Shown here: positions 4,933 through 44,135 of the stretch, one piece after another | Numbering within the stretch: position 1 is the first letter of the stretch | How the letters are laid out: each line of letters opens with the position of its first letter | Source of the DNA: a virus | Strand: one strand, 5' to 3' | Length of the DNA: 44,135 nucleotides | Virus record (IMG/VR): IMGVR_UViG_3300025099_000041 | Location: 1-44,135 of that record | Translations under genes and position numbers: made by a program | Notes under the pieces: model-generated | Told to the model about the DNA's origin: nothing | The model's database searches: none | The model's input: only the letters and a program-made list of their open reading frames with translations

Positions 4933-4948
4933 TGGCACGATCTTTGCT
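4933..4948 (+). promoter_or_regulatory. Sigma-54 promoter of the major capsid gene
   Basis: TGGCACGATCTTTGCT matches the sigma-54 consensus TGGCACG-N4-TTGCW at every defined position, with GG at 4934-4935 and GC at 4946-4947 separated by exactly 10 bases. It begins 6 bases after the scaffold stop. Transcription would start near 4959, giving a leader of about 80 bases. The leader has no clear Shine-Dalgarno sequence but carries two AAGGGCAT copies. Confidence 0.85.
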
Positions 4949-5041
4949 TACATAAAGATGCTTCTAGGCCAAGGGCATGGCATGCTACTATTTGTGAAGG
5001 GCATCACACGGACTAAGTTTTAACAATTAAATTATAATAAA

Positions 5042-6448
5042 ATGGCAGTATCAGCTAAAGATCCGGCGAGTCTTTTAAATAAAGCACTCAACGAAACTAA
5101 TGCGACTAGCGAGTTTAATAAACTCGAATACTATCTAGTTAAGAACGAGGTAGCCCTTTTCCCTAAATGGAATGTTTATGATTCCATGTATGGATCTATA
5201 AAGTGGCAACCTAATATGGGATCAGAACTTCAAGGGTTGACACCAACTCCGAGTCCTGTTCAGCGTAATATATTTGCTCCAGCAAAATTAAGTGATATCC
5301 CTGCAAAAGATATCTATGAAATTGGTGAACGAAATGAATCTGCAAAGCTTGCTTACCACAGGTATGAAAGCACACGTTTTCGTTTTTTAAGCAGTTTTGA
5401 AGCATTTTGGCGTGATCAACTAGCTTACGCACATTCTGACATTGTTCGTCAGATTCAGAATGCAAACAACCAGTTTGTTCGTACACTAATGTACTATCAA
5501 ACACCTGACTTGTTTATTGCTAAAGATGGTGCTGGATTTTTGTCTAGTGCAAATAATCTTGGAACCGGTATTGTAAAAACAGCACAGACTCAAGATGCTA
5601 TTCGTGCAATAGGAAGTGCATCTAATCCAGATGATGATTCTATTGGTGGCTCAAGTGAAAACTTGTCCAAGCAAGGTGGTGAAGTTTTTCGTGCCGCAAT
5701 TGATGGAGGTACTGCTGGTACTAATGCTGCTGATGTACTTAGGTTGAAAGACTTGTATAAAGCTATGCTTGTTTTGCAAGAAGATGTACAAGCACCAACG
5801 TTTGAACGCACATTTGGCGCACCTAAAACTTCTGAAATGATCAAGGGCAAGTATGTTCTTGTTTGTTCTACAGAAGCATGGGCATCTCTATTATGGGATA
5901 CAGACTTAAAAACAAGTAGTGGTGCTAATCTTGCTTCTACCAATCAAGACTACATTAAAGATGGTTTTGCTGGTGATTTGTTTGGCAAGATTACAGTTAA
6001 GTATGATCCGTTTCCACTTCGGTTTTCCGATAATGGTTCATGGGTTCAACCGCAAAGTGTTGTTAACGGTAAAGTAGTTCCTAATCCGAACTATACTAAG
6101 TTCAATGCTTATAATAGTTCTTCTGCTTCTATTGGTTCTAACGAAGTTGCCTTCTTGTGTGGTGCAGATGCGTTTAAGACAATCTCTGTTGGACCACCAC
6201 CGAAAGAATTCGCTGGTAAGAACATCTCTAAGAAGAAGTTGTATGGCATGAACTGGAATGGTCAAATTGACTTGACCGATCAGTTCTTAGTTCCAACTGC
6301 TGATCAAGGTGTAACTCACGCAACTAACTGGGATATGAACGTATACGGTGATTATCTGAAGTTTATCTCACAGACAATTCACGGTGGTATACCTGGTGAT
6401 GCAAGACATTGTTTACCAATTGTTTTCCGTCGCAGACGTACCTCTTAA
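5042..6448 (+). CDS. Major capsid protein
   Basis: 468 aa, directly after the scaffold, preceded by its own sigma-54 promoter and followed by a strong terminator, so it forms a monocistronic, presumably highly expressed unit. The protein is soluble with no signal or membrane segment. The N-terminal part is helical and rich in aromatic residues (WNVYDSMYGSIKW); the centre is a mixed domain with a TVKYDPFPLRFS strand, and the end is basic (VFRRRRTS). Gene order, size and the expression design make it the best capsid candidate. I cannot place it in a named capsid subfamily, though an HK97-type fold is the default expectation. Confidence 0.8.
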   Translation: MAVSAKDPASLLNKALNETNATSEFNKLEYYLVKNEVALFPKWNVYDSMYGSIKWQPNMGSELQGLTPTPSPVQRNIFAPAKLSDIPAKDIYEIGERNESAKLAYHRYESTRFRFLSSFEAFWRDQLAYAHSDIVRQIQNANNQFVRTLMYYQTPDLFIAKDGAGFLSSANNLGTGIVKTAQTQDAIRAIGSASNPDDDSIGGSSENLSKQGGEVFRAAIDGGTAGTNAADVLRLKDLYKAMLVLQEDVQAPTFERTFGAPKTSEMIKGKYVLVCSTEAWASLLWDTDLKTSSGANLASTNQDYIKDGFAGDLFGKITVKYDPFPLRFSDNGSWVQPQSVVNGKVVPNPNYTKFNAYNSSSASIGSNEVAFLCGADAFKTISVGPPPKEFAGKNISKKKLYGMNWNGQIDLTDQFLVPTADQGVTHATNWDMNVYGDYLKFISQTIHGGIPGDARHCLPIVFRRRRTS

Positions 6449-6457
6449 TTAACACAT

Positions 6458-6484: not shown

Positions 6485-6492
6485 AAAATATT

Positions 6493-13321: not shown

Positions 13322-13694
13322 GGTAACAGACGTATTCAACTCGTTGTATTCAGCAGTTGTACAAGCGCAAAAAGAAGTTGAAGGGAAATACATTGAGAAC
13401 ATTGACAAAACTTATTTTGAAGATGGAAAACCCAAGACCGTCACAGTTGAACTGGGGGGAAAGCAAATTGAAATTCCTCTCTTTTCACTTGTACCGCACA
13501 ACGCACTCAAGATTGAAGAGTGTGAAATAGATTTTGAAATAGATTTAAATTTTAACAAAGAAGCTACTGGATGTTTTGGAAAACTCAGAAAAAAGAAAAT
13601 GGCTAATGTTAGAATAAAATTTGCTGGTTGTGATCAAGCAGAAGGGCTTGCACGAATCGGTGATGGTTTAGTTAAAACAATACCTACAGTATAA
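13314..13694 (+). CDS. DUF2589-like protein, shorter paralogue
   Basis: 126 aa, overlapping the fibre stop by 8 bases. It lines up by eye with the next gene: both have an N-terminal helix, then a strand IPLFSLVPHNALKIEE (next gene: MPLISMVTIPNLSIQD) followed by CEIDFEIDL (next gene: VDIDFTMEV), and a late VRIKFAG strand plus C-terminal helix. It therefore looks like a diverged tandem copy of the DUF2589 family with the central Ser/Thr-rich loop removed. Function unknown; adjacency to the fibre suggests a virion or adsorption accessory. Confidence 0.65.
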   Translation: MDKVTDVFNSLYSAVVQAQKEVEGKYIENIDKTYFEDGKPKTVTVELGGKQIEIPLFSLVPHNALKIEECEIDFEIDLNFNKEATGCFGKLRKKKMANVRIKFAGCDQAEGLARIGDGLVKTIPTV

Positions 13695-28000: not shown

Positions 28001-28191
28001 CTACAATTGATCGTAATGAAAAAGGCGCAGCACTCACTAGAAAGTTTGGATCTAAGATGATGAAAGGTACAATACTAGAGAAAGAGCAAGCCAAAGGATT
28101 AATTAAAACAGAACTAGAGTACGAAAAACTTAAACAACAAAAGAAAGCCTTGATTATGCGTTATGTGGGATCGCAAGGAAAACTTTTATGA
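22060..28191 (+). CDS. Giant internal virion/ejection protein with HExxH metallopeptidase motif
   Basis: 2043 aa, by position and size the equivalent of gp16-like ejection proteins. Residues 35-110 are Gly/Ala-rich and hydrophobic (LVPGATGLAAMAAAS, VGTLGSAILGGIAGE). Residues 493-497 are HETAH, an HExxH zinc-peptidase motif in FHETAHVFVRDM, with FLEEFLVTEG about 60 residues later as a possible third ligand, as in polyvalent-type zincin domains. Residues about 1100-1450 are long charged helices. Residues 1470-1530 contain a less polar stretch (ITSSWLGAGAGIRDFMSSYL). The likely job is to cross the envelope with the DNA, the peptidase acting on cell wall or host proteins. Overlaps the nuclease gene by 4 bases. 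Confidence 0.75.
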   Translation: MTLEEEKRRLRERYNIPDNVDILTDEEYYLAEAEETSAAEAGVKSGLRSLVPGATGLAAMAAASKGLARLPIPGPVGVGTKIVGTLGSAILGGIAGEMGQTEVEEAIRGEEAVRDSQMRRAAEREVHPVSTVAGEIIGGGIGGGVKPSIGLLKGGSTLTGLADAAKSGLGTRAKMSEAAKYATSQAGFGAGIGGAVEGARQYAEGDFSPAALGTAMVGGALFTEPFAHGRKLLGGGAPPMTDPTPRDLEYGFSTGPDQITPLTDDQAYLARSTLKGDKVATEFTKKTLVEDANERIEKLNDFEEFNEFKESIDAKADELRTTPSKPKKSLESEFNVENKEISDPDIEAALGKKFPEGKKPTPTEQQKKDLRAAAKKEIEARINRYTSDELASSYAKLAAVKRSKSASQFLGDTKVSPEQARDALYKEVESKMPVDLFNTARNLADKRGVTMRIAVNQIVNNAKSRTVGYVGRNNREAVISLDDLVKNTDTPFHETAHVFVRDMIQSSNETDSKLAQGWLTDLLKNDPTFDFKAARKKLEDTGYKFKNDKQFLEEFLVTEGSKKLEQRLRNLPKGTFDKMRRWYSDVKRGNKVKYGKAAVNDILDYMAQRLELDPNRIFDNDLWIQGKINYLEYIGAKPKEKLVDSDGYHSASKVVDGVKYESSVNIYDIPKELEDLLALPERPKNFGKNYVEDLNEFKIALDKNHSYKSTIEYLDGHSIHEGNFDQFMDIMRGRNSGTLKKLYKSLDNKPEIILKTRRPEEPAGYFERDKLVIGIPTIDESFDTTVARYLTYSKLMDDVKVNDQIGSAWVMVAKTGMWTQNYEPYMIHKFLDYAINTSNKIDEGVKAKLRHYYDHLKIEPLRGGYKGQSGDSIAMYDTRMMHQGDGLQGILKNLPEDIKKQFAYRIAPVDGLGMNADEYVTFFDSILDNFGVAGSSTRKGFNHVQRSPEALLQGFLNKKTFDTVDNSKVIYDVIKDEGMSYSEFDRLQALWTAQKVPIDEVLAGGMYKKFVDTAEDSLGVKGLDTILNNDPTPPSPRQTEFDDFTSINRSIVEESGDDSLAKIDSETPIPFDAKPEELPTVDNYESKRYSELPVPNADDIKTWQPLKRFTRVFRPVIDRIRELGTGKSKALSKYIAAKLENVHSEEREIVGKYLEKTMLALSEVHLSPQELSILGRYQTERWHKHLKLIEEIDPKLSEAYNLNTRIRYYDRMIESVYRDTRTMQNDLGLKVAVFRDGQPNYVPGQHTLEYTPEIINQEKRRILMTGKKQSPEYQQLKTELIAYWKKQASGMSDEEFADAVKQSQDKVKDEGGELVEMPSNKMTADDKFEALFENLAYALRANDKEIGSHRFKALRVATGRLGLPAAWIEDNAIQRMTRYVVRFAKDMAMFKHIESDPKSRQILGLPDQEGKYIFKHDLEGMENGGPFNVREVNPNDKTTIETLELKGKPLYSSKEIESVMENYIGYYEDWDLGIRTANRLITSSWLGAGAGIRDFMSSYLFALPYMRTQDLPILATHLLDLRNAWKKSFEYGINKSNLNNLEYKAESVNRLADWANSTADAMLRLGGRNTLEQGTRALQFAFGKQLVWSALHLRPLEKLGMKGDMTADRLIDTIQRQMGEVTIKGKRVNLKDYVGNGNKAPDEVMNKAAAAWVEVNQGTYDARGLPKFTQRGVISMVTSLSRWSIEKADRMMKDVYVPLRTQGDPRPLIKATLGAVIGGEALRYASEVIANKMQGDPHIIEAIHMEDDKELFYALANSIQYAGFFGFQSALVFDLLKGGRFGITQGIPGGFTFPAIDQGFKIANDFTKFFASGEMIGESFGESWMKFIRKTFLDLNQSSRYFANHVLLSEDMSEFNARTAMRKWNRLTTGVDEQGVPSDIGNQYRFPAKQNFRNASNIADARTLLPKAVREAARHAMEEHPNDEAKQQDLFKQKLNDLWRGNWKSTPASPTSRKYTSHKSRIQYLGLQPSKADLAAYPDLATIDRNEKGAALTRKFGSKMMKGTILEKEQAKGLIKTELEYEKLKQQKKALIMRYVGSQGKLL

Positions 28192-29085: not shown

Positions 29086-29207
29086 AAAGATAAGCTGGTC
29101 AAGTTTCGTAAACCAAGAAACCGAAACTCATAAACAGATCCGTATTGCTCTCCAACGTCAATAAGAGAGAATCTGACCCAGCTAAAATTTGAGTGTATCG
29201 TAAACAT
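29082..29207 (-). CDS. 41-residue microprotein coupled to its neighbours
   Basis: Starts 26 bases inside the 3' end of the P-loop ATPase gene and ends in an ATGA overlap with the following gene. The product contains NFSWVRFSLIDVGEQYGSV and FRFLGLRNLTSLSL. Aromatic and beta-like, with no long hydrophobic span. Coupling on both sides and filling of an otherwise empty gap make it a credible gene. Function unknown. Confidence 0.55.
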   Translation of the reverse strand: MFTIHSNFSWVRFSLIDVGEQYGSVYEFRFLGLRNLTSLSL

Positions 29208-30420
29208 CAGTGACACGAGCTTTGAACCAACCACCATTGTTGTCTACTTGTTCAGTAGTAACTAGGAATTCAAGAACTTGATCCAGTTCTTGTTTGGTAA
29301 TTTCAGATACAAATTTAAGCCAAAGCTTTTTGTACCTTACGCCTGAGTCAGCGTCAATGATATACCGTAGTATATGCTTCGTGATTTCACCGATAGGATT
29401 TCTACCTACAGTATTGAAAGCTTCATGCATCTTGTGTTCTGTAATAGTCAACAACTTGAATGCACGTTGCATATCGTTTAAAGAGATCTCCATGCTTTTA
29501 TGATCAGCAAAATGTATAAGCATGGCAGTCTTCAACAAGTGTACATTCTTTCTGCCATAATAATTATCTAACCGTGGATCTTTGTTTACTCGCTTGGAGT
29601 ATAGTTCACCAGACTCATAAAGTTCTTTGTGCCATTCCTGCGCTTCCTTTGATAGAGACACTTCTCCGCAAATGTCATGTAGATTGTACAGTGTATCTAT
29701 GATGTCTTTTCTGCACTGGCGTTGTTGATCTGTAAGACCGGGAAATTGTCTAAAGAATCTTGGAGCATGACCGAACACAACGATAACACGAGATGTAAAT
29801 CCCTGAGAAATAATCTTATCGCTGAAAGCTTCACGAATAAATGAAGGCGTTGTACCTCCAAGCATGGTCACACAAATATTTGTAATGTCATCTGACCCTT
29901 GATGCTTACTCTTGTAATGATAACTTCGTGAATCATAAAACTGATTCAACATATTAACCATGTCTTCAGAGTTCTTCCTAAACAATACACCAAGTTCCTC
30001 AACCATAAAACAAATTGAATGATGAGATCTTTTCTTGGTTGCTGTGCCTCCAAGTCTCTTGTCTGGAATCTTAAACGTTCTGATACAATCATCACGCATG
30101 AACCTGAGTAAAGACTCTTGTGTAGTTGTGTCTGCACCACAAGGAAACATTGGAACCATGTTGTTCTTTTCAAGATTCGGTTCCATCAACTTCTCGTTCT
30201 TGATTACATCAGCTACTTGTGAGATCACGCGAGACTTACCCGCAGCAGGTGGACCAACCAACAGTGTAAAGATGTTGGGGTATATTGCCATTGAGTCTGG
30301 ATACAACCAGACCCTCCGTTGTAATGCGGCACTAATTAAACTATAGAAACTCCAATCTATAAACAGGTCAGGTGATTCTAAATCTTTAAGATAGTGCCTC
30401 CACTTCTCAAGATTAGTCAT
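29182..30420 (-). CDS. P-loop ATPase, probable replicative helicase (DUF3987-like)
   Basis: 412 aa. Walker A GPPAAGKS at residues 56-63, a Walker B-like strand ICFMVEELGVLF near 135-147, and a later Thr/Gly motif (VTMLGGTTPSFIREAF) followed by an arginine-containing GFTSRVIVVFG. This layout matches the DUF3987/primase-helicase-like ATPases that replace DnaB in some phages. The C-terminal third is helical with a winged-helix-like DADSGVRYKKLWLKF region. It lies in one operon with DNA polymerase. No primase domain is visible here, so priming must come from elsewhere. Confidence 0.75.
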   Translation of the reverse strand: MTNLEKWRHYLKDLESPDLFIDWSFYSLISAALQRRVWLYPDSMAIYPNIFTLLVGPPAAGKSRVISQVADVIKNEKLMEPNLEKNNMVPMFPCGADTTTQESLLRFMRDDCIRTFKIPDKRLGGTATKKRSHHSICFMVEELGVLFRKNSEDMVNMLNQFYDSRSYHYKSKHQGSDDITNICVTMLGGTTPSFIREAFSDKIISQGFTSRVIVVFGHAPRFFRQFPGLTDQQRQCRKDIIDTLYNLHDICGEVSLSKEAQEWHKELYESGELYSKRVNKDPRLDNYYGRKNVHLLKTAMLIHFADHKSMEISLNDMQRAFKLLTITEHKMHEAFNTVGRNPIGEITKHILRYIIDADSGVRYKKLWLKFVSEITKQELDQVLEFLVTTEQVDNNGGWFKARVTDVYDTLKF

Positions 30421-30598
30421 CTAACGTATCAATTAATTTTGCTATGATTGTGTATTGCTCAAAGGTTAGAGCAGGTAATACTTTACCGTTGAGTGTAATA
30501 ACTAAGATCGGTTCATTTTCATCACCGTCAAAAAAGTTATCAAGAGCGACACTTATATTTGTGTCTCCGACGTTGTAGCTTACTATTGGTTTAGACAT
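30413..30598 (-). CDS. Small acidic hypothetical protein
   Basis: 61 aa, overlapping the polymerase gene by 8 bases upstream and the ATPase gene by 8 downstream. Beta-strand-rich start (SYNVGDTNISVALDNFFDGD) then ILVITLNGKVLPALTFEQY and an acidic C-terminal helix. No family recognised. Position between polymerase and helicase suggests a replication accessory. Confidence 0.65.
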   Translation of the reverse strand: MSKPIVSYNVGDTNISVALDNFFDGDENEPILVITLNGKVLPALTFEQYTIIAKLIDTLDD

Positions 30599-32957
30599 CT
30601 ATCATTTCCTTCCAGTTATCCCCGATCATAGCTTCTGATCTCATACAGAAACGCTCGCCACGGGGAGAAATCATTTCACGGTTTAAGTGCTTCATTGCTT
30701 CTTGGGCAACGAATTCCGAATGCTCTGGAGCGCATTGGAGCAGGACACTATCATGGTTGTTCTGGAGTACGTCAACTCCTAAATCCTGAAGATCTTTTCT
30801 GTTCTGTAATTCAACGAATGCTAGATTAGTAATGCATCCTACAGTTGACTGAGGCACAAAGGCATACGCTTCCTTGTACATAGTCTCGTCAATGAATCCA
30901 GTGAAGTATCTTGGATAACCAAATAAATTTTTAAGTATCTTTGTACTCTTTAGTTTTTCAATAGTCTCATTGTGCCATTGATTTATCTCAGGAAATAGTT
31001 TGTGATAAGTCGCAAGGAATCTTTTAGCTTCCTTGTTCTCAAGTGCTATTGCACCCTGAGATTTCTGCAACATATTAGTTCTAAACGTTGGTGCTTTCAT
31101 ACCATAGTTACTTGCATGACATACCATCTTTGCCATGAAGTAATAACGCTTGTCTGCTGACCAGTTGTCACTGTCTTTAATCACAGCGTTGAGATCATCC
31201 CAACCTTTTATATTCTTTAGTTCACTTATAGGTGCTTCACAAAAATCGTCTACACTTCTGCCTAGTTGTTCTGCCCAGACATCTGGAAACAATCGCAACG
31301 CAACAAACACATGAGATTTAATTCCCTCAAGAAATAAAGTTCTAAAGTTTCCCGGTACACACAAGTAACCTACAATCATTGCTTCTGCACCAGCTTGGTC
31401 AGCCTGAACAAGAACCTTACCTTTATCTGCAATGAATAGTTTGCGAAGTTTCTTTGGTATGTTCTGTATGTTAGTACCCCAGCGTCCCAGTAATTTTCTA
31501 CTAGCCAATCGAAACGTTGATGTACCTGCCAAGTTGTAAGCAGTTGTTATCCTGTCTGCCACAGGCTTGGTATACAAACCTTCGTATGGTGTATACTTTA
31601 GTTGACCAGACTCTTTTGCAATGGATCTGTATTTAAGTATGACAGATATAGATGGTAGATTATGTTTGAGTCTGTGCTGTAGCAAAGTCTTTTCATTGGT
31701 TAGATCCTTTGAAGGTTTCTTTAACTTCATATCATTATAAAGATACTCAGAAACTTGTTTAGGACTATTCGGATTTAGATCTCTACCAACCAACAAGCTT
31801 AACATTCTGCGTAGTTGTGCCTTGTACCTTTCGTTACGCATCAAGATTGCTTTCTTCTCTTCAGTGTTTATACGTAAGCCTTGACACATGGCAGTCAAGT
31901 ATGGAACTACCATAGAGTTAGCCTGTTCAATTGAACCTCCAGCTTTCATCTTACCAGCAAGAGCTTCGATTGATGGCTTGATTAGTGCCATCGTCAAAAC
32001 ATCTTTAACGTTATAATGATACAGTTGATCGAACTGCTCTGAAGTTTGCGGATTATAACAACCTTCGTTTTTATGGTATGGTTGATCTGTATAAAGAGAT
32101 ATGCAATGTCCAAGAGACTTCTCAACTTCAGGAAACAATCTGTGGTGAGCCAGCATTGTGTCGTAAACTTTCTTAGGTGCAGGGATTCCATAGCGATACG
32201 CAATAACAAACAAATCAAAGAGTGCGTTGTGAATTACAACTGTGTTATCCCGTAGTGCAATTGCCAATGCCCGTAAAATTTGCGGAGTCTCATCATAGTG
32301 ATAGTAGTTTATGCGTAGCATTGGTACACAATAACCTTTCCCTCCAAAAGAAAATCCAAAGCAAGTCATCTCAAGATTCGGATTCGTTTCAATATCAAAG
32401 AACATATCTTGATCCTTAGTGTTAGTTAAGATGTCTATGATCTCATCTGCTTTAGGATAAATACAATGCTCACCAGCTTGTGGATTAGGTGGAGTCTTTA
32501 GATAACCAACTGCCTTGGCAACATCACGTTGCATCCAGTGTCTCCAGTTAGATCGTTTAGTTTTACCATGTCTCTCAGTCTCGTCATACTCATACTCAGT
32601 ATCATTGGCTAATGGATTGAAGTATGCCTTGCGATCAATTGCATTCTGTGGTGCGAAGGTAGCAATGTAAGCTCGACCATGAACAATCCAAGGACATCCA
32701 CGTTGTCCACCTAGTCTACTGTTCTTGAAAGTTCTTAAAGCCTTCTCGCCCAACAACAAAATTACTTTTGTGTCGGGGAGAAAGCCTTCGCCCAATGTAT
32801 TGAGCAACCGTATGTCGCAAGATTGTCTTGGAATGCTTAACGCATTCTGAAACAAGTGACCCGCATAGCCTGAGATTAACTCACACTTGTCGAATCTACT
32901 TGGACTTTCCAGTATTACTGTTAGACCGCTGTACGGAAGACTTGGTTTGTGTCTCAC
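30591..32957 (-). CDS. DNA polymerase, family A, with UDG-like N-terminal domain
   Basis: 788 aa. Residues about 1-150 look like a uracil-DNA glycosylase fold: ESPSRFDKCELISGYAGHLF, then VILLLGEKALRTF and RGCPWIVHG; the usual HPS-type motif is changed to FAPQNA, so activity is doubtful. A DnaQ-like 3'-5' exonuclease follows (FFDIETNP about 187, IHNALFDLF, YNVKDVL). The polymerase has motif A VQADQAGAEAM (about 519), motif B KMVCHASNYGMK (about 612) and motif C NNHDSVLLQC (about 734). It copies the phage genome. It starts with GTG and overlaps the preceding gene by 62 bases, so the exact start is unsure. Confidence 0.9.
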   Translation of the reverse strand: MRHKPSLPYSGLTVILESPSRFDKCELISGYAGHLFQNALSIPRQSCDIRLLNTLGEGFLPDTKVILLLGEKALRTFKNSRLGGQRGCPWIVHGRAYIATFAPQNAIDRKAYFNPLANDTEYEYDETERHGKTKRSNWRHWMQRDVAKAVGYLKTPPNPQAGEHCIYPKADEIIDILTNTKDQDMFFDIETNPNLEMTCFGFSFGGKGYCVPMLRINYYHYDETPQILRALAIALRDNTVVIHNALFDLFVIAYRYGIPAPKKVYDTMLAHHRLFPEVEKSLGHCISLYTDQPYHKNEGCYNPQTSEQFDQLYHYNVKDVLTMALIKPSIEALAGKMKAGGSIEQANSMVVPYLTAMCQGLRINTEEKKAILMRNERYKAQLRRMLSLLVGRDLNPNSPKQVSEYLYNDMKLKKPSKDLTNEKTLLQHRLKHNLPSISVILKYRSIAKESGQLKYTPYEGLYTKPVADRITTAYNLAGTSTFRLASRKLLGRWGTNIQNIPKKLRKLFIADKGKVLVQADQAGAEAMIVGYLCVPGNFRTLFLEGIKSHVFVALRLFPDVWAEQLGRSVDDFCEAPISELKNIKGWDDLNAVIKDSDNWSADKRYYFMAKMVCHASNYGMKAPTFRTNMLQKSQGAIALENKEAKRFLATYHKLFPEINQWHNETIEKLKSTKILKNLFGYPRYFTGFIDETMYKEAYAFVPQSTVGCITNLAFVELQNRKDLQDLGVDVLQNNHDSVLLQCAPEHSEFVAQEAMKHLNREMISPRGERFCMRSEAMIGDNWKEMIDV

Positions 32958-33165
32958 GAGCTTTGAGTGCTTGCTGTTTTAGTTTGTCTTTCAATCCATC
33001 CTTTATGTAATCTTGTAACATTAAAATTACATCATGTATACCAGAGAGGTATCCATCTGCTAATGCCTCGGCTTGGGCATCTATTGTTTTTACTCGTAAC
33101 CGTTCAAGTGCTTGCGCGTTCTTCTTGTTAGTTACTTCTTTTATTATTGATTCTATTTCTTTCAC
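32896..33165 (-). CDS. Small helical protein before the polymerase
   Basis: 89 aa, charged and helical (KEIESIIKEVTNKKNAQALE; AEALADGYLSGIHDVILMLQ), with a Ser/Thr/Asn/Lys-rich tail that is encoded over the start of the polymerase gene. ATG overlaps the preceding stop (ATGA). No motif recognised; perhaps a replication accessory. Confidence 0.65.
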   Translation of the reverse strand: MKEIESIIKEVTNKKNAQALERLRVKTIDAQAEALADGYLSGIHDVILMLQDYIKDGLKDKLKQQALKARETQTKSSVQRSNSNTGKSK

Positions 33166-33398
33166 GATAATTTCTCACAATACTTTCTTTTAACATAATC
33201 TGGAGTACCATAACGTTTGCGTACTTCAGCAATTCTTTGTTCCTTGTTTGGGAAATCTACTTTGTAATCCATTGTACGACTTTCCCTTCTACCGACTTCA
33301 TCAGGTTTTAACCCATGCCGTCTTGCAAATTTTTTGTACGCTTTTCTGATTCCCTCAATATTACCTGAGTGAACTATATCAAAATAATTATATTTCAT
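33162..33398 (-). CDS. Small basic protein
   Basis: 78 aa, basic. It contains GNIEGIRKAYKKFARRHGLK, vaguely like helices of a J-domain but lacking an HPD motif (the equivalent place reads GLKPDE), then KEQRIAEVRKRYGTPDYVKR. It could bind nucleic acid. It is the first gene after a strong hairpin terminator, so it and the polymerase downstream are probably expressed at a reduced level by read-through. Confidence 0.6.
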   Translation of the reverse strand: MKYNYFDIVHSGNIEGIRKAYKKFARRHGLKPDEVGRRESRTMDYKVDFPNKEQRIAEVRKRYGTPDYVKRKYCEKLS

Positions 33399-33399
33399 A

Positions 33400-33480
33400 A
33401 AAATAGAGAAGAGGAACTGTGTGTGTACGCTGTACCAAGCTTCCTTGCATAAGGTCTACACAAAACAATTCCCCTTCTCT
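33400..33480 (-). terminator. Long hairpin terminator/attenuator
   Basis: Arms 33405-33419 and 33466-33480 pair over 15 positions with only two G-T wobbles; the interior pairs further (TGTGTA with TACACA, CCTT with AAGG). On the minus strand the stem is followed by ATTTTTATG. It separates the SSB-like gene from the polymerase part of the operon and should lower expression downstream. Confidence 0.75.
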
Positions 33481-33487
33481 TGCACGA

Positions 33488-33991
33488 TTAGACTATGTCG
33501 TGTTCTGGTGCTGCACTAATCAGTTCCCCGGTGGAATATGCATTGAAGGTCACTGGATCACCCGTTGCTGGGTCTACCATTGCTTCTCCTTCTGCATTCT
33601 TCCTAACCATCTTCTCTGTCTTGATGGTTGCGTAGGCAGCTTTACCTTTATAGACATCACCATTAGGCTCGACAGTACCCCAAGGGTTTGACTCGTCTGA
33701 ACAGTTGATCTCGAAAGGTAAATCAAGAACACGGTGCAAACGCTTGATGCGTATTGCAGCCTTCTCAATGAACACTAGGTACTCACGGAATTGCAATCCA
33801 GCAATCCGCACATCTCCCAAGTCAGGATCTTCTACTGACTCAGGTGCAACGATCTCCCATGACAAAACAACCATAGGGTTGCCAGCTTGAGAGGTACGAG
33901 TTTCTACATCCGCAACGCGGATAGTGTAGGTGTTTGAAGGTAAGAATGGCCGAGCATTCTCCTTCACGTCATTTAGGTTTATAGTAGGCAT
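33488..33991 (-). CDS. DUF669-like single-stranded DNA-binding protein
   Basis: 167 aa starting at ATG 33991, which is preceded by GTGAGGA as a ribosome site; a longer frame to 34039 adds 16 residues but ignores that site. The N-terminus MPTINLNDVKENARPFLPSN, followed by a beta-rich core (TYTIRVADVETRTSQAGNPM, VVLSWEIVAP) is the DUF669-type pattern of phage ssDNA-binding proteins found next to Sak4-like recombinases. It would coat single strands in replication and annealing. Acidic-type SSB tail is not obvious (ends APEHDIV). Confidence 0.7.
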   Translation of the reverse strand: MPTINLNDVKENARPFLPSNTYTIRVADVETRTSQAGNPMVVLSWEIVAPESVEDPDLGDVRIAGLQFREYLVFIEKAAIRIKRLHRVLDLPFEINCSDESNPWGTVEPNGDVYKGKAAYATIKTEKMVRKNAEGEAMVDPATGDPVTFNAYSTGELISAAPEHDIV

Positions 33992-33995
33992 TATA

Positions 33996-34121
33996 CTAGT
34001 TATCCTCACTTCGTGTGAGAAATTGTGACAAGCGATCAATGCAGGGACAAACCTCGATTCCCGCGAGAAAACCTGTCTGCGTCTTAATAGCAGTATGTAC
34101 TTGTCTTAAATTATTAAGCAT
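33996..34121 (-). CDS. 41-residue microprotein between Sak4-like and SSB-like genes
   Basis: Starts at an ATG overlapping the stop of the Sak4-like gene and stops 4 bases before the SSB-like ATG; the SSB ribosome site lies inside its 3' end. Product begins MLNNLRQVHTAIKTQTGFL and contains two Cys (VCPCIDRL). Soluble, no known motif. It fills a gap of more than 100 bases in an otherwise gap-free operon, which supports it. Confidence 0.5.
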   Translation of the reverse strand: MLNNLRQVHTAIKTQTGFLAGIEVCPCIDRLSQFLTRSEDN

Positions 34122-34758
34122 AGTATTTATCTGATGCTTTGATTACTTCGTTGAGATCATTAGGTATGTAGAGATCTTTAAACATACCAAGAGGAGTCTT
34201 CGCTGATGTCACTCCATCGGAGTTAGTCTGAAAACAATACTCAATAGCGTCTTCTGTTCGACGTACTTCAGTAAAGAGAACCATCAATAGTTCCTTCTCG
34301 ATGCAGCCTTCGTGAACTCTGCCTTGAACCTTGATGCGTCGAGTATTGTACTCACCGCCTGTTGGTTGTGTGACACGCACGATCTCATCAATCGCTGTGA
34401 AGATTACTACAGCTTTCTCATTCTTAACTCTGTCAAGAATGTCACGAATAGACTTGTTGTAATATGTCCAGACATCATAACCTTTGTACATCTTTGCTGC
34501 TGTGCTAAATAGTATCTCACAATACTTTGTGAATGATTCAATCACTACAACTTCTGACTCCTTGATTGCTTTATCAATTGCCTTCTCAACATCTGGTAGT
34601 TTGTTTACCGATATAACATTGAAGTTCTTAGCTTCCTTGAATGGGAAACCTTTACGCTCAAGGTCAATGATAGTTGTCTTGTCTGGCGGCAAGTTGCGAA
34701 GTGATGTTGATTTGCCAGTTCCGCTTGAGCCAACAACACCTATAATGGGTTTATTCAT
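34114..34758 (-). CDS. Sak4-like RecA-type ATPase (recombinase)
   Basis: 214 aa. Walker A GVVGSSGTGKST (residues 7-18), a short VVVIES Walker B near 71-76, and a compact RecA-fold domain without further extensions, as in Sak4-type single-strand annealing or exchange proteins. It sits between a RecB-like nuclease and an SSB-like protein, the classical phage recombination trio. The gene overlaps the DUF1599-like gene by 4 bases. It would pair single strands at ends or breaks during replication. Confidence 0.75.
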   Translation of the reverse strand: MNKPIIGVVGSSGTGKSTSLRNLPPDKTTIIDLERKGFPFKEAKNFNVISVNKLPDVEKAIDKAIKESEVVVIESFTKYCEILFSTAAKMYKGYDVWTYYNKSIRDILDRVKNEKAVVIFTAIDEIVRVTQPTGGEYNTRRIKVQGRVHEGCIEKELLMVLFTEVRRTEDAIEYCFQTNSDGVTSAKTPLGMFKDLYIPNDLNEVIKASDKYYA

Positions 34759-35150
34759 ATTACTGTTATTTCTATGTGTTTCGTTGTTTTCTTTTCAACG
34801 TTTGGCCAAGTGCCTTCAATAAGCATTTGACCGATCAATCCATAGTTTGCTATGTCTTGAAAAGTATCTTTAAGTGACTCGTGATTTGGTTCATTACCAG
34901 ATTCAAGAATGTTCTTGAGCCTGAAGATCTTATCAACAAGTCGTGTCTTCAATCCCATCAAGCCTTCAGTTGAAATGTTCATGGGTCCGTAATCAAGTTG
35001 CTTTGAATCAAGTAACCTCACACAATCAACAGCGTTGTAAAATGCTGTAAGACCTGCGAGTGTGTTCAACTCAAAGTTGAGTTCTGCTTGTGCTTCTTCA
35101 CCGTCCATAACGTTTAGTGTTTTCTTTACTTCTCTCTCGAAACTATGCAT
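34755..35150 (-). CDS. DUF1599/Nmad1-like protein
   Basis: 131 aa, alpha-helical. DYGPMNISTEGLMGLKTRL, then DKIFRLKNIL and NHESLKDTFQDIANYGLIGQ match the pattern I know from DUF1599, the nucleotide-modification-associated domain 1, related in layout to all-alpha NTP pyrophosphatases (K-x-R-L-x-x-L ... E-S-x-x-D-x-x-x-D-x-x-x-Y). It might act on nucleotides or modified DNA precursors. No partner modification enzyme is visible in the window. It overlaps both neighbours by a few bases. Confidence 0.6.
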   Translation of the reverse strand: MHSFEREVKKTLNVMDGEEAQAELNFELNTLAGLTAFYNAVDCVRLLDSKQLDYGPMNISTEGLMGLKTRLVDKIFRLKNILESGNEPNHESLKDTFQDIANYGLIGQMLIEGTWPNVEKKTTKHIEITVI

Positions 35151-36048
35151 TGAAGTTTAATGGGTTATATAATTTAGTATAAAAGTCGTTCTCAATCACA
35201 GCTTCACCAAAGTCGCCAGCGTTACAGATTCTTGCAAACTTGCACATACCAAACTTGGTTTCACAACAATTGAAATTGGGTAGGAAATAATTCTTATCTT
35301 CCTTGATGTTCTTGGTTAGCAGCTCAACAAATTTGACAATGGTTTGTGTCAAGTGCTGTTCAAAGTATGCCAACTTATCATCTGAGTAGTCAAGTATCGG
35401 ACTGCGTTGGAACTTATTCTTGCCTGTTCTTGATAAGAATATGCCATTGATAACTGCTTGGTAATTTCTGTCAGGAAAAAGCTTACGCATAACTAAAGTG
35501 TAGAGCATGATCTGTGTAGACATTCTGTATGTATCCAAGTATCTGTCTACTGCTGTGACTGCGGTTGATTTGTGATCGCATATAACATTCTGACCAAAGT
35601 ATGTGCCAATGAAATCTATTGTACCGCAAATGATAACGTCAATAAACCCGTTGGTGTAGAAAGGAAAACCAAACTTCATCTCTAACAACGCCTTGCCTTC
35701 ATGCTTCTCAACTTTAAGACCATCAACATCTTGATAAGTATCGAAGTATTGTGTGAGACAATTGGCCAAGTGTCCTGCGGTTCTCCAATCAGAGTCAGGA
35801 ATTACAATCTCAGGATTAGAATAGTGAGTGAGTCCTTCATTCATTGCCTCTGCTCTATCACCAGTCTCATAGAAAGTTTCTAGTGCTTTGTGGTACGCAG
35901 TACCGTATTCCATCTTGTGATTCATGTAACTACTACGCAATCCACGGACTGTAGTGTAGTAGAATTTCAAGTCACAGGCAGACTCCTTGTATGCAGATGC
36001 ATCAATGCGGAGAATGTAACGATCGTCAGCTTTTTCTAGTTTAATCAA
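35143..36048 (-). CDS. RecB/Cas4-like PD-(D/E)XK exonuclease with Fe-S cysteines
   Basis: 301 aa. GTAYH (49-53), GTIDF (142-146, Asp145), CDHKS (157-161, Asp158/Lys160) and the following Q-x-x-x-Y (Gln179, Tyr183) are the RecB nuclease motifs. Cys25 near the N-terminus and a C-terminal CCETKFGMCKFARIC cluster (261-275) look like the four-cysteine iron-sulfur site of AddB/Cas4-type enzymes. It probably resects ends for the Sak4-like recombinase. Start is TTG at 36048, overlapping the preceding stop, with AAGGGG upstream as ribosome site. Confidence 0.8.
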   Translation of the reverse strand: MIKLEKADDRYILRIDASAYKESACDLKFYYTTVRGLRSSYMNHKMEYGTAYHKALETFYETGDRAEAMNEGLTHYSNPEIVIPDSDWRTAGHLANCLTQYFDTYQDVDGLKVEKHEGKALLEMKFGFPFYTNGFIDVIICGTIDFIGTYFGQNVICDHKSTAVTAVDRYLDTYRMSTQIMLYTLVMRKLFPDRNYQAVINGIFLSRTGKNKFQRSPILDYSDDKLAYFEQHLTQTIVKFVELLTKNIKEDKNYFLPNFNCCETKFGMCKFARICNAGDFGEAVIENDFYTKLYNPLNFNA

Positions 36049-36205
36049 TTTTAATTTTGCCCCTTCTTTTCTTCTGTATCTTTAGTTCTTCTAGCTCATC
36101 TGGCAGTGTCAACTTGAGGTATGGTGCAAGATGCTCCATCAGTTTTGAATCTGACATAGATTCTAGTTCATCAACTGACACTTCAAGTAGTTGTTCTATT
36201 GTCAT
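36041..36205 (-). CDS. 54-residue acidic/basic helical microprotein
   Basis: Begins MTIEQLLEVSVDELESMSDS, continues with a helix and ends in a basic run KKRRGKIKID. ATG overlaps the preceding stop (ATGA) and its stop overlaps the start of the nuclease gene; the AAGGGG in its 3' end is the ribosome site of the nuclease. No family recognised. Confidence 0.6.
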   Translation of the reverse strand: MTIEQLLEVSVDELESMSDSKLMEHLAPYLKLTLPDELEELKIQKKRRGKIKID

Positions 36206-36294
36206 TTAATTGATGAGAAAATTGCTGCGGCCAAACCAGAAACAAACCATAACATAAAAAGAATTGCAGCGATATTGAATAGTATCTCAATCAT
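36202..36294 (-). CDS. 30-residue single-span membrane microprotein
   Basis: MIEILFNIAAILFMLWFVSG then LAAAIFSSIK: one strong hydrophobic helix with a basic C-terminus. ATGA overlaps on both sides (36291-36294 and 36202-36205) tie it into the operon, so chance is unlikely. It could be a membrane effector or anchor of the recombination/replication complex. Confidence 0.6.
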   Translation of the reverse strand: MIEILFNIAAILFMLWFVSGLAAAIFSSIK

Positions 36295-36809
36295 TTCATT
36301 ATCCTGACGTATGAATCAGTGATGTCTACTTCTGAGTCTTCAGTGACTAGATTGTAAATGAATTCCCTGTCAGCTTCATTGACTGATACATTACGCTCAA
36401 ACAATTCTGACTCTGGTGCTGTCTTATACCATGTCTCTAAATCATTCTTCCATGTGATAGAATCATTGTATTCATAGTCTAAATCTTTAGAAACTAAAGT
36501 ATTTCTTGGTGTATCTTTAAAGTATATTATGACTCCATCGTCTGTCTTGCGTATGGCAGTCTTTGTTCTGAGTATTGTATACTTCTCTTCGTTGAAGTTA
36601 TCCACAATGAACTTGAATCCATCATTGAGCTTAACGTATAGAGTGTTTGGAGTGTAGCCTGTTTGTTGTGCATTGACGTATGCATCTTTACCAGACTCTA
36701 TCAATCTATCTAGTATTGGTTGTATCTGCTGTGCAGATGACGGACAATAACTAGATCTTCTTGACTGAGTTTTCTTTAGTTGGTTTATTGTAACGTTTTC
36801 GATTTGCAT
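36291..36809 (-). CDS. Hypothetical protein, second gene of the sigma-54-driven operon
   Basis: 172 aa. Ser/Gln-rich start (KKTQSRRSSYCPSSAQQIQP), then a central beta domain (TLYVKLNDGFKFIVDNFNE; GVIIYFKDTP) and an acidic C-terminus (NLVTEDSEVDITDSYVRIMK). No membrane segment or catalytic motif. Overlaps the preceding gene by 25 bases. Unknown function. Confidence 0.7.
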   Translation of the reverse strand: MQIENVTINQLKKTQSRRSSYCPSSAQQIQPILDRLIESGKDAYVNAQQTGYTPNTLYVKLNDGFKFIVDNFNEEKYTILRTKTAIRKTDDGVIIYFKDTPRNTLVSKDLDYEYNDSITWKNDLETWYKTAPESELFERNVSVNEADREFIYNLVTEDSEVDITDSYVRIMK

Positions 36810-37186
36810 TGATCCATGTAGTTTTCTGCTGTTTCTTTATTACCCTTCGCGAACTCTGCTTGTGCCAGTAGAAATAGTTTTCTTGCTGACAATTCCTTGA
36901 GACTTGGAGTCCATTCATTAGCTTCGTCTTGTGTTAGTAATGTACCATCAGGATGCTTGCGATATAGCTCGTCTTTATAACGTTCTAGTTCTGATGTTGG
37001 TAAGTTCTTTGGTAAAGAGTTCTTAACCTTTGCTCTGATCCTTGTCTGTACTTGCTGGTTTACTAATGCAAGTAATGTCTTGTCTCCGTATGATTCAACA
37101 ACTTCGTCAAGACTTTCAAAAACTGGGGTAAAAAAACTGAACCCCTTAAAATCTCCATCGATGAATTTTTCTTTCTTATAAGTCAT
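36785..37186 (-). CDS. Hypothetical protein, first gene of the sigma-54-driven operon
   Basis: 133 aa, helical, charged. It contains FKGFSFFTPVFESLDEVVES, then a helix-rich middle (LLALVNQQVQTRIRAKVKNS) and YRKHPDGTLLTQDEANEW. It begins about 16 bases after the predicted sigma-54 transcription start, without a clear ribosome site. Function unknown; as promoter-proximal gene it should be the best expressed of the operon. Confidence 0.7.
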   Translation of the reverse strand: MTYKKEKFIDGDFKGFSFFTPVFESLDEVVESYGDKTLLALVNQQVQTRIRAKVKNSLPKNLPTSELERYKDELYRKHPDGTLLTQDEANEWTPSLKELSARKLFLLAQAEFAKGNKETAENYMDQCKSKTLQ

Positions 37187-37249: not shown

Positions 37250-37981
37250 TTAATAGATGATTAATTCTCCTAGTGTCTTATAACGTGCGACTATACTGTG
37301 TAGTTCTCTATAGTTGCCAAGGAGTTTAGTCTTAGACAAAATTGTTTTCGTAAGTTCTTCTGGTTTAGGGATTTGCATAGCTTTCAAATAGAGTACGATG
37401 TCTTGTGGTCTGTCCCTGAGTGGTGATGTCTTGATAATGAAGGTTGAGATTCTGAAGTATAGATCCAATCTAAACCTACCTTCCTCAACTTCCTTGCGTA
37501 AATCTTTGTTGGTTGAGAATACAAAACGACAAGTTGCATTGTACTCCGAAGCGTCTCCTATCTTATTATACTTCTTGTATTGTATAAACCTAAGTAGCTT
37601 GGGTTGTAAATGATATGGTAGTTCTCCTATCTCATCTAAAAAAAGCGTTCCCTTGTGTGCTTGTTGCACAAATCCTGTGGCATCTCTTGTTGCTCCAGTA
37701 AATGAACCCTTCAAGTGTCCGAAAAGTAACGATTCAAATAGATCTTCTTGCAAGGTTGTTACGTTTACTGGTACGAAATTTGTTGCGTGTCTTGAGTCTG
37801 ATGATGGTTGTCTATTGCCATGCAATATTTGAGCCATAGTTTCCTTGCCTGTGCCAGACTCCCCCATCACTAGGACAGGGGAATCGTGGCATGACAAGAT
37901 ATTCGCATGATAAATTTGGTTTACCATGAACTTATCTTCTGTGATTAGACTATTCAATGTCTTCAATCTCTTCGATTTCAA
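37250..37981 (-). CDS. Sigma-54-dependent transcription activator, AAA+ domain only
   Basis: 243 aa, an enhancer-binding-protein AAA+ domain: Walker A GESGTGKE (40-47), the sigma-54 contact loop GSFTGA (92-97, normally GAFTGA), Walker B TLFLDEIGELP (112-122), sensor I STNKD (156-160), arginine fingers in FRLDLYFR (Arg171, Arg177) and sensor II GNYREL (222-227). All residues needed to hydrolyse ATP and remodel RpoN-polymerase are present. Receiver/PAS domains and the C-terminal Fis-type HTH are absent; the chain ends 16 residues after sensor II. It should work from solution, like FlgR-type activators without DNA-binding. It ends an early leftward unit; three sigma-54 promoters are in this genome. 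Confidence 0.92.
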   Translation of the reverse strand: MKSKRLKTLNSLITEDKFMVNQIYHANILSCHDSPVLVMGESGTGKETMAQILHGNRQPSSDSRHATNFVPVNVTTLQEDLFESLLFGHLKGSFTGATRDATGFVQQAHKGTLFLDEIGELPYHLQPKLLRFIQYKKYNKIGDASEYNATCRFVFSTNKDLRKEVEEGRFRLDLYFRISTFIIKTSPLRDRPQDIVLYLKAMQIPKPEELTKTILSKTKLLGNYRELHSIVARYKTLGELIIY

Positions 37982-38171
37982 TGTAGTCTACGCCCAACAG
38001 TTCTTTCCACTTCCAGTCTGCTGGGTGTTCTTCTCTGTTTGGGTCCCATTCAAAGTACATTGTAATTAAGCATTTCTGTTTGGGTTTGTTAGGTTGTTCT
38101 TTGGGACTTGCACCTGATCCCTGCTCACGCTGACCCCATGCGTCTAGTATTGTAAAACTCATTTGATTCAT
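37950..38171 (-). CDS. Small acidic hypothetical protein upstream of the activator
   Basis: 73 aa. Starts in an ATGA overlap with the DUF932-like gene, then MSFTILDAWGQREQGSGASP, a charged linker, CLITMYFEWDPNREEHPADW, and a strongly acidic end (IEIEEIEDIE). A second ATG three codons in is also possible. It overlaps the activator start by 32 bases, so the two are probably co-translated. No family recognised; an anti-activator or partner is possible but unsupported. Confidence 0.6.
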   Translation of the reverse strand: MNQMSFTILDAWGQREQGSGASPKEQPNKPKQKCLITMYFEWDPNREEHPADWKWKELLGVDYIEIEEIEDIE

Positions 38172-39320: not shown

Positions 39321-39508
39321 GGTGATAGTATATCTTTGTGAGGGAATAAAATAGTGAGAGTTGGTAAAGAACAATGCACCATGTGTTCATGATGCATTGC
39401 CTTGTATACTGGTAACTGTCTTTGCATTCTGGATATTCTTTCCTGTCTAGGTGTAAGCTTATCAGAATACGGTAGTCTCTCAAACTGCCAGTTCTTGTGC
39501 GACTTCAT
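39317..39508 (-). CDS. Small basic hypothetical protein
   Basis: 63 aa from ATG 39508 (MKSHKNWQFERLPYSDKLTP, then RQERISRMQRQLPVYKAMHH). A longer frame to 39577 exists, but it would overlap the upstream gene by about 98 bases. The core with several Arg and His suggests nucleic acid binding. No family recognised; start uncertain. Confidence 0.5.
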   Translation of the reverse strand: MKSHKNWQFERLPYSDKLTPRQERISRMQRQLPVYKAMHHEHMVHCSLPTLTILFPHKDILSP

Positions 39509-39845
39509 TGACCGAAAGCCAATCGCTTGGCATATCCGTTTTCTTGTTTGTCTCGTAATTCCACAAGTATTGCTCATGCTTATGCTGATACAGTCTGATA
39601 GGTTGATTCATGGTTTGTAATAAACCATTGAGCCTTTCTCGTGTGGTAGGAGTAGGCCAACCAGCTAATGTGATTAGTAGTTCGCCATTGTCTATGCTTT
39701 GTTTGGCAATACAGTTGCCGTGCAAGTACAGATACTTCCATCTTTTACCTAGTTCGTCATTGTATCCTTTAACTAATGTATTATCACGAGAGAAGGACTT
39801 GCCTTGTTTGAATGCTTTGCTTGCTAGTCTAGTAATCTTTCTCAT
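39480..39845 (-). CDS. Hypothetical early phage protein
   Basis: 121 aa. Basic start MRKITRLASKAFKQGKSFSR, then GKRWKYLYLHGNCIAKQSID and a GWPTPTTRERLNGLL segment, and QPIRLYQHKHEQYLWNY near the end. Patterns with H-G-N-x-I-A and R-L-x-Q-x-K are known from small uncharacterised phage proteins (from memory). Soluble. ATG overlaps the preceding stop. Confidence 0.65.
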   Translation of the reverse strand: MRKITRLASKAFKQGKSFSRDNTLVKGYNDELGKRWKYLYLHGNCIAKQSIDNGELLITLAGWPTPTTRERLNGLLQTMNQPIRLYQHKHEQYLWNYETNKKTDMPSDWLSVNEVAQELAV

Positions 39846-40059: not shown

Positions 40060-40084
40060 AAAAAAAGAGGGGCTTTCGCCCCTC
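40060..40084 (-). terminator. Rho-independent terminator/attenuator
   Basis: Minus strand GAGGGGC-GAAA-GCCCCTC followed by TTTTTTT. It sits 4 bases after the stop of the gene at 40089-40676 and directly before the next ATG, so the rest of the early block depends on read-through. Confidence 0.9.
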
Positions 40085-40955: not shown

Positions 40956-40976
40956 AAAAAACCCCTTGCGGGGTTT
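40956..40976 (-). terminator. Rho-independent terminator
   Basis: Minus strand AAACCCC-GCAA-GGGGTTT with T-run; follows the stop of the gene at 40981-41274 by 4 bases. Confidence 0.9.
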
Positions 40977-41278: not shown

Positions 41279-41302
41279 AAAGAAAAGCCCCCTTGCGGGG
41301 GC
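41279..41302 (-). terminator. Rho-independent terminator
   Basis: Minus strand GCCCCC-GCAA-GGGGGC (41287-41302) followed by TTTTCTTTT; closes the gene at 41310-41540. Confidence 0.9.
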
Positions 41303-42272: not shown

Positions 42273-42288
42273 TGGCACGATCATTGCT
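42273..42288 (+). promoter_or_regulatory. Sigma-54 promoter of the large right-end gene
   Basis: TGGCACGATCATTGCT fits TGGCACG-N4-TTGCW at all defined positions, with exact GG-N10-GC spacing. The ten bases TGGCACGATC are identical to the capsid promoter. Start is expected near 42299, leaving a leader of about 80 bases, as for the capsid gene. Confidence 0.85.
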
Positions 42289-42378: not shown

Positions 42379-44135
42379 ATGTCTGGACAAGATAACTCAG
42401 TAGAAAATTTCGCACAAGAACCTCTAGCGGAGGGTCCATTAATAAAATACACACCGGGAGGCACTGCTGCTGGTCGTGCGTTAGACAGTGGATTACCACC
42501 TGCTAGAGCGCAACTTGGTGGTGGTGAATTTTGGGGGCAACTCGTTCAACCGGGAAACTTCAACCTAGACAACACAGGTGGAGGCAACACAGGTGGAGGA
42601 GGATCTGTAGATGATGGAGGATTAACAGACGAACAAACAGGTGCAATTATAGACGACGAAAATAAATATTTAGATACTCTCGGACCAGTTGACTACAAAC
42701 CAGTTGATTGGCAGTTTAATCCAGATTTACTACAACAGGTTGAAAATTATCAAGGTACAAAATTTTTTCCTGAAGAAGCTTCTGGAGGAGCTTATGGTTG
42801 GGGTACGTCTGGTCCAATAGTTGAAGGTCCAGATCAAGAACCATCTACTGGGAATAAAAATTTTAGAACCTATCTAAATTCTGGAGGCACAACAGATGAG
42901 CAAGGCCGTTATGTAGCAGCAGGAGCTAGACTACCAGAATGGGCGTATCAATATCCTAATTGGTCTAAAACTGTGAGTTTTGGTGGAGATCTTCCATCAA
43001 CAGGAGAAATACTATTTCCTAAAATAAGTGAATGGATGGCAGGTAATCAAGGTAAAACAACAGAAGATTATCACAAAGCAAGAGACTTTCATTTTTACAA
43101 ACAAAAATACTACAACGAAAATAACAAATCAGCGATCAATGCGTTGACAGGAATGCTTTCTGAGAGTGAGAAATTTATTGATGCAGCATTAGGGCAAAGA
43201 ACCGCAGATCAAAGACCGTTACCAGAAGGTTATGCAAAAAATCCTATATACAGATATGCAAATAAGTTTAAAGAAATTCTAGACGGTGTATCAGATGAAC
43301 AGATTAAATGGTGGGAAACAAGAGGAATTGCAGCAGATCCGTCAGGTAAAGAACCATTTGGTCCAAGATTTACACCAGATAATGTACAAACATTAATGAA
43401 AAATGCAGGGACTTCATTGTCTAATGCAATAAAAATACTTCAGGGTAAAGATGAAGAAGTACAAGCACTCAAAAAAGCAGATCCACAAAAATACGGACAA
43501 TTACAAGTATTAGCATTAATAAACACAGCAGCACTGGTAAATGCATACGGTCCTTATGGGTTATTGCCGGGAGGTATAATGACAGGGGCAAGTGACATAA
43601 TGTCAGCAATGAATGGTGCATTAGCAGAACGCCCAGAGTTAAAAGGAAATCCAATACAAGATGTTGTACATTCTACAATGTGGATTGGAGGTAAAGCAGC
43701 ACAACTTGCATACAACAAAACACTAGGAGCAATATTACCTAAAACTCAGATAAAAGATAAAGCATCAATAGTAGGTTCAGCAAAGAAAAATTTAAAATTA
43801 GAAGACTGGGGAAAACAACTTGATTCACCAGAACTTACTGGATTAACGATTACGTTTGATCCAAATATGAAAAAACCAGTAAGAGAAGGGCCACAACGAG
43901 AATTTAAAACTCTATCACCGCTAGATCCAACTAAAGTTGATGTACCACCTACAACATTTATACAGCCCGGTAAACCAGTAAACACGGGTGCTGATGATAA
44001 AAGAGAAGATATAAGAGATGATGAAAGACGCATAGAAACAGGAGGCGGTGGACCTATAACAAGAGTACCATCAGACAACGTGCCAATTCCAAGTGATCCA
44101 CGAGACACTCCACCTAGAACAACTGGACCTTTAGG
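42379..44135 (+). CDS. Large protein of unknown function, 3'-truncated (probable virion protein)
   Basis: Open from ATG 42379 (frame closed upstream by a stop at 42340) to the window end, 585 codons without a stop. The N-terminus is disordered and Gly-rich (NLDNTGGGNTGGGG). The middle is helical and aromatic (YHKARDFHFYKQKYYN; QIKWWETRGI), with a mildly hydrophobic Ala/Gly stretch (LVNAYGPYGLLPGGIMTGAS). The last 100 residues are Pro/Asp/Arg-rich and disordered. It is driven by a capsid-like sigma-54 promoter, which suggests a late, abundant virion protein, perhaps an internal or tail component. No family is recognised; no enzyme motif is seen. Confidence 0.8.
   Translation, partial: MSGQDNSVENFAQEPLAEGPLIKYTPGGTAAGRALDSGLPPARAQLGGGEFWGQLVQPGNFNLDNTGGGNTGGGGSVDDGGLTDEQTGAIIDDENKYLDTLGPVDYKPVDWQFNPDLLQQVENYQGTKFFPEEASGGAYGWGTSGPIVEGPDQEPSTGNKNFRTYLNSGGTTDEQGRYVAAGARLPEWAYQYPNWSKTVSFGGDLPSTGEILFPKISEWMAGNQGKTTEDYHKARDFHFYKQKYYNENNKSAINALTGMLSESEKFIDAALGQRTADQRPLPEGYAKNPIYRYANKFKEILDGVSDEQIKWWETRGIAADPSGKEPFGPRFTPDNVQTLMKNAGTSLSNAIKILQGKDEEVQALKKADPQKYGQLQVLALINTAALVNAYGPYGLLPGGIMTGASDIMSAMNGALAERPELKGNPIQDVVHSTMWIGGKAAQLAYNKTLGAILPKTQIKDKASIVGSAKKNLKLEDWGKQLDSPELTGLTITFDPNMKKPVREGPQREFKTLSPLDPTKVDVPPTTFIQPGKPVNTGADDKREDIRDDERRIETGGGGPITRVPSDNVPIPSDPRDTPPRTTGPL

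Follow-up and report, generated by a model that had tools for sequence, protein, structure and literature searches.

The window analysed here, a 44,135-base IMG/VR virus record, encodes a minimal sigma-54 activator consisting of an AAA+ domain only, and it is likely (probability about 0.8) that this early phage protein opens host sigma-54 polymerase from solution at three phage promoters and acts as the middle/late switch, a reading inferred from sequence alone without biochemical data. It rests on the domain and motif content of the protein, the missing HTH, the conservation of this layout, three conserved promoters and the lack of an RpoN in the window's family. In the proposed mechanism, a constitutive HTH-less activator would be produced early from a leftward early operon (38-41.5 kb) and would form an AAA+ ring in solution. 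This ring would touch host RpoN-RNA polymerase held as closed complexes on three phage -24/-12 promoters and would spend ATP to open them, promoter (c) serving replication/recombination genes and promoters (a) and (b) serving the capsid and other virion genes. A sigma-54 promoter gives no transcription until an activator acts on it, so that a single early product would set the timing of almost the entire middle and late expression. The inferred parts of this mechanism are the early expression of the protein, its assembly into a ring, its action from solution, the formation of open complexes and the presence of sigma-54 in the host.

The activator gene lies on the minus strand in an open frame of 243 codons (37250-37981), the existence of which was confirmed. 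Translation most likely starts from TTG 37957 rather than from position 37981, since the proteins of relatives start at the counterpart of ...MxxLITED and a stop just upstream closes the frame in one of them (L002); the gene then occupies 37250..37957 and the protein has 235 aa. It matches PF00158 (Sigma54_activat) over residues 12-182 with an E-value of 5.9e-54, and beyond overlapping AAA models the Pfam search gave no second domain above the cut-off. All of the expected motifs are intact, namely Walker A (GESGTGKE), the GSFTGA loop, Walker B (TLFLDEIGE), sensor I (FSTN), the arginine fingers (FRLDLYFR) and sensor II (GNYREL), after which the C-terminal tail is 16 residues long. A C-terminal Fis-type HTH is absent from the activator and from all aligned relatives according to Pfam and the alignments, and no N-terminal receiver, GAF, PAS or PRD domain is present according to Pfam, about 25 residues without any other domain preceding the P-loop strand. 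The missing N-terminal regulatory domain is not decisive, as PspF-like members also lack one. Among proteins of solved structure the closest matches are to the AAA+ domains of FleQ, NtrC, NtrC1, LuxO and PspF, and an AlphaFold2 model predicted from 23 phage sequences (mean pLDDT 85.7) was matched by Foldseek to NtrC1, FlrC, FleQ and PspF with a query TM of about 0.8; the L1 loop is present, and the catalytic residues are invariant across 23 aligned activator sequences. By its motifs, its GAFTGA-type loop and its fold, the window protein belongs to the sigma-54 activator AAA+ family, its ring formation, ATPase and open-complex activity being inferred; with neither an HTH nor a regulatory domain, it does not qualify as an enhancer-binding protein under the strict definition. 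An ORF for a 73-aa protein (37950..38171, minus strand) overlaps the activator start by 8 nt, and translational coupling of the two within the early operon is probable. The 73-aa protein was also considered as an obligate small partner and rejected as a general one, as it is kept in close relatives but replaced by a different gene in distant ones.

Relatives were gathered by scans of IMG/VR in which the activator, the exonuclease nearby and the 133-aa gene served as queries, and which gave dozens of contigs; many of these are close relatives, so that the observations are not independent. The aligned set comprises 29 non-redundant sequences (<96% mutual identity) that are 39-90% identical to the window apart from one identical copy. 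All 29 proteins stop a short distance past sensor II without any HTH extension, and a local truncation or frameshift is rejected on these conserved protein ends. Between the window and L002 activators dN is 0.052 and dS 0.48, and the dN/dS of about 0.11 therefore places the activator under purifying selection. In the L1 loop of the phage family GSFTGA and GAFTGA alternate (GSYTGA occurs once), and GSFTGA is present in two Desulfovibrio response regulators, among variants expected to stay active (PMC4641369); GSFTGA as a special loop is therefore rejected. Regarding the protein, the first-pass annotation held in describing an AAA+ domain with all motifs intact, no regulatory or DNA-binding domain and an end 16 residues after sensor II. 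The ORF that it gave (37250-37981) exists with the start corrected to TTG 37957, and the structure prediction that it had proposed as a check yields a fold matching NtrC1 and PspF. It had named homologues that all carry an HTH as one result that would refute it, and the same truncated layout was found instead in all 29 non-redundant relatives. Its emphasis on the A-to-S change in GAFTGA as worth testing is not supported.

Three predicted sigma-54 promoters accompany this gene. Promoter (a), TGGCACGATCTTTGCT (4933..4948, plus strand), is located 93 nt upstream of the ORF at 5042, and promoter (b), TGGCACGATCATTGCT (42273..42288, plus strand), 90 nt upstream of the ORF at 42379; these are the only exact matches to TGGCAC-N5-TTGCW in the window and both are intergenic. 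Promoter (c), TGGCACGAAGAATGCT (37229-37214, minus strand), has one mismatch and sits about 20 nt past the activator stop codon and 27 nt upstream of the ORF for a 133-aa protein. These three are the only intergenic matches in the window with one mismatch or fewer. Markov (dinucleotide) shuffles of the 4,630 intergenic bases contained on average 0.004 exact and 0.12 near matches, and the observed two exact or three near matches were attained in none of 500 shuffles. Their GG and GC dinucleotides are spaced by 10 bp as a -24/-12 promoter requires, and a transcript start 11-12 nt downstream, dependent on RpoN and an activator, would be expected.

The promoters are conserved along with the genes that they precede. 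In most relatives promoter (a) lies 86-95 nt ahead of the presumed capsid gene, in close relatives promoter (b) is kept ahead of the homologous large ORF that opens the virion operon, and promoter (c) is found between the activator and the 133-aa gene in relatives. The activator is present in 44/44 (c) loci with enough upstream sequence, and the order of activator stop, 16 to 48 nt, sigma-54 site and 133-aa gene is kept in 44/44 loci with enough sequence. A (c) site with two mismatches or fewer occurs in 49 of the 50 loci, the sole exception having just 64 bases upstream, and the L002 site is the exact consensus, TGGCACGAAGGTTGCT, without the single mismatch of the window. In 27 distinct (c) sites the TGGCA and TGC columns are invariant, with a mean core information of 2.0 bits versus 0.43 in the flanks; taking all three promoters, core columns are near 2 bits and flanks at 0.4-0.9, with near-invariant TGGCA/TGC cores and variable spacers. 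No enhancer-like repeat or element common to (a), (b) and (c) was noticed, in keeping with the activator's lack of a DNA-binding domain, a UAS embedded in coding sequence and a host or phage tether not being excluded. The motif TGAAAAAATGACC upstream of promoter (b) was considered as an enhancer and rejected, as it occurs in a single copy in the window and is absent at (a) and (c).

The first gene after promoter (c) (36785..37186, minus strand) heads the leftward replication operon and encodes the 133-aa protein, which has no assigned function and no Pfam match; its relatives occur in 52 loci and adjoin the activator wherever the sequence suffices. Downstream of (c), PHROGs matches identify replication/recombination genes on the minus strand (29182..36809), including an exonuclease (35143-36048), a Sak4-like protein (34114-34758), an SSB-like protein (33488-34039), a DNA polymerase (30591-32957) and a primase/helicase (29182-30420). 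The first gene after promoter (a) (5042..6448, plus strand) encodes a probable major capsid protein of 468 aa, an assignment made by position only because the ORF follows the terminase (470-1975), the presumed portal (1932-3680) and a 377-aa ORF. The 5042 ORF has no family match, neither portal nor capsid was matched in annotated phages, and a capsid fold could not be read from the AlphaFold2 model of this ORF, which was unusable (pLDDT 34). The first gene after promoter (b) (42379..44135, plus strand) is a large ORF that heads the rightward virion operon, runs off the window end and has as its homologue in the relative L007 the 1109-aa ORF that follows promoter (b) there. In L007 promoter (b) and the capsid gene share a strand, with the promoter upstream, and the window record is therefore inferred to be a permuted or cut map; the terminase and presumed portal, now at the other record end from (b), would follow the (b) ORF on the real map, as inferred from the L007 arrangement. 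The virion gene region also contains a DUF2589 protein (13694-14311, plus strand; PF11655, E 6.9e-31), and a 2043-aa ORF (22060-28191, plus strand) has no match in Pfam or PHROGs.

The leader between promoter (a) and the 5042 ORF contains two RNA hairpins (4966..5009, plus strand) with identical AGGGCA hexaloops and stems of GCCA/TGGC and TGTGA/TCACA. They are kept in 10 relatives and show compensatory changes, with 99% of cells paired and 9 cells changed on both sides against 0-1 in slid controls. Rfam gave no matches, these hairpins included, and it is suggested only tentatively that a regulator of capsid gene translation binds the RNA here.

The genes at 38-41.5 kb, including the activator, stand behind no sigma-54 site and are presumably early, which is an inference; a pattern scan of this region for a sigma-70 early promoter for the activator performed no better than shuffles. 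Three strong terminator-like U-tailed hairpins on the minus strand (40067-40084, 41287-41302 and 40959-40976) divide the presumed early operon into short units. The same region harbors a gene (39480-39845, minus strand) matching Kyanoviridae Gp96, a cyanophage gene family (PF23790, E 1.8e-13), which contrasts with the absence of sigma-54 from cyanobacteria (PMC3162934).

The search for RpoN (Sigma54_DBD) was negative for the window and for 20 of the 21 related records covered, and the host RpoN must therefore supply the sigma factor. Scans of a genome collection with portal and RpoN alignments gave no prophage relative from which a host could be named, and naming the host through the terminase was rejected, the closest sequences, from Akkermansia phages, being too weak at 30-33% identity. 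As for the transcriptional claims of the first-pass annotation, its promoters at 4933 and 42273 held as exact matches, the third at 37229-37214 having been missed, and its proposal that the phage captures host RpoN-polymerase is supported by the universal layout, the conserved promoters and the absence of RpoN from the window, the capture itself remaining an inference.

The exception among the 21 related records is IMGVR_UViG_3300043414_000745 (L050), whose capsid gene is about 27-29% identical to that of the window and which encodes an RpoN of its own (11503-12813, minus strand) with PF00309, PF04963 and PF04552 all above cut-off. RpoN was found in 13 viral contigs including this one (L050, L124-L136), two of the copies being cut at the 5' end, and a minimal activator accompanies it a few kb away in 13/13 contigs of this sister clade. 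The RpoN box ARRTIAKYR is invariant in seven aligned members, and a PDB profile search matches sigma-54 over nearly the whole length of the protein; the annotated phage collection contains distant RpoN matches only (27-38%), several of them in records resembling bacterial contamination. The pattern TGGCAY-N5-[AT][AG]GCT is found upstream of rpoN and of several other genes (L124-L136, L018, L050). In four sister-clade loci this altered pattern occurs 8 times versus 0.21 expected and TGGCAY-N5-[TC]TGCW not at all, and in the window family the canonical pattern occurs 8 times versus 0.61 expected and the altered one not at all. The altered pattern was derived from the same loci in which it was counted, so that the count is descriptive, and a few canonical-looking sites exist in the sister clade too (L126 4509, L129 19, L132 406). 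A changed -12 specificity of the phage sigma-54 is possible, again as an inference from sequence. A bolder reading, in which the whole middle/late programme of a widespread lineage would run via sigma-54 and an enhancer-free activator, and the captured rpoN of a sister lineage with its private -12 element ([AT][AG]GC replacing TTGC) would form an orthogonal viral sigma-54/promoter/activator system, is one towards which the balance tips slightly. Separately, the gut phage DP SC_2_H4_2017 (MT121960.1, L137) carries a sigma-54 activator domain (5761-6681, plus strand) that has GETGTDKE as Walker A and ends about 35 residues after sensor II without an obvious HTH.

The main rival is that the phage protein is active only in mixed oligomers, to which a host enhancer-binding protein contributes the HTH and the signal, in the style of FleT/FleQ, which implies that the phage promoters need host enhancer sites and a host signal. 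In its favor, FleT lacks both domains (PMC3162934) and functions as a complex with FleQ (PMC7277832), and the invariant AAA+ residues of the phage activator would permit mixed rings with a host protein. However, no common upstream element was noticed at the three promoters, flank conservation at (c) is low, and the layout is kept down to about 40% identity and in the RpoN-encoding sister clade, which would demand one host partner throughout; this rival is unlikely. Much less plausible still is that the activator targets host genes, inducing the sigma-54-dependent genes of the host (for envelope stress and nitrogen uptake) or poisoning host activators, with the phage promoters being secondary. 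A diffusible HTH-less activator would be expected to reach host sigma-54 promoters too, but the conserved tie to three fixed phage promoters, one of them 16-48 nt behind the activator gene in every informative locus, argues against it. A chance-acquired host gene (moron) or assembly contamination with coincidental -24/-12 matches, suggested by the many tblastn matches in the public phage set that resemble bacterial contamination, is all but excluded, since dozens of viral contigs share the gene neighbours, which already refutes it, and 0/500 shuffles reproduced the sites.

If the preferred reading of an early activator acting from solution is true, the middle and late genes of the window family run through a bacterial stress/nutrient polymerase, and a switch made of a sigma-54 activator, with promoters silent until the ATPase acts, would give tight timing by a single early protein. 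RpoN dependence would in that case predict host range and give a resistance route through rpoN loss. Whether sigma-54 activation requires any enhancer could be tested cleanly with these phages, as they supply naturally minimal activators (about 235 aa, AAA+ only) together with their defined cognate promoters, and the RpoN of the sister clade is a candidate for a sigma-54 whose -12 specificity has changed.

Known phage takeover of transcription uses sigma-70 family factors, appropriators, antiterminators and the phage's own single-subunit or multisubunit RNA polymerases. Among bacterial regulators, FlgR and CtcC show that an enhancer-binding protein can lack the DNA-binding domain (PMC3162934, PMC7482065). 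FlgR of Helicobacter/Campylobacter and CtcC of Chlamydia share with the phage protein a central AAA+ sigma-54 domain and the absence of a DNA-binding domain (PMC3162934, PMC7175178, PMC7482065), but both retain a receiver domain at the N-terminus and are controlled by a sensor kinase, whereas the phage protein is virus-encoded and without any regulatory domain. FleT from Rhodobacter sphaeroides likewise lacks both the regulatory and the DNA-binding domain (PMC3162934), although it is a bacterial flagellar regulator that works in a hetero-complex with FleQ (PMC7277832). PspF from E. coli also lacks a regulatory domain and matches the AAA+ fold (TM about 0.8), but it has a C-terminal HTH and is restrained by PspA. 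Among phage families, phrog_7998 matches activator residues 24-232 (E 2.4e-39); its profile of 339 positions is longer than the phage protein and has no function assigned in PHROGs. In the open-access literature searched, which leaves subscription papers uncovered, no phage is described as expressing its genes by means of a sigma-54 or sigma-54 activator that it encodes itself. The nearest precedent for a phage protein acting on the sigma-54 polymerase is P7 of Xp10 (PMC5053324), which inhibits the polymerase rather than activating it. The AAA+ family itself is known; what appears to be new is that a phage uses it as a switch, with conserved sigma-54 promoters of the phage's own, and that a viral RpoN exists in a sister clade.
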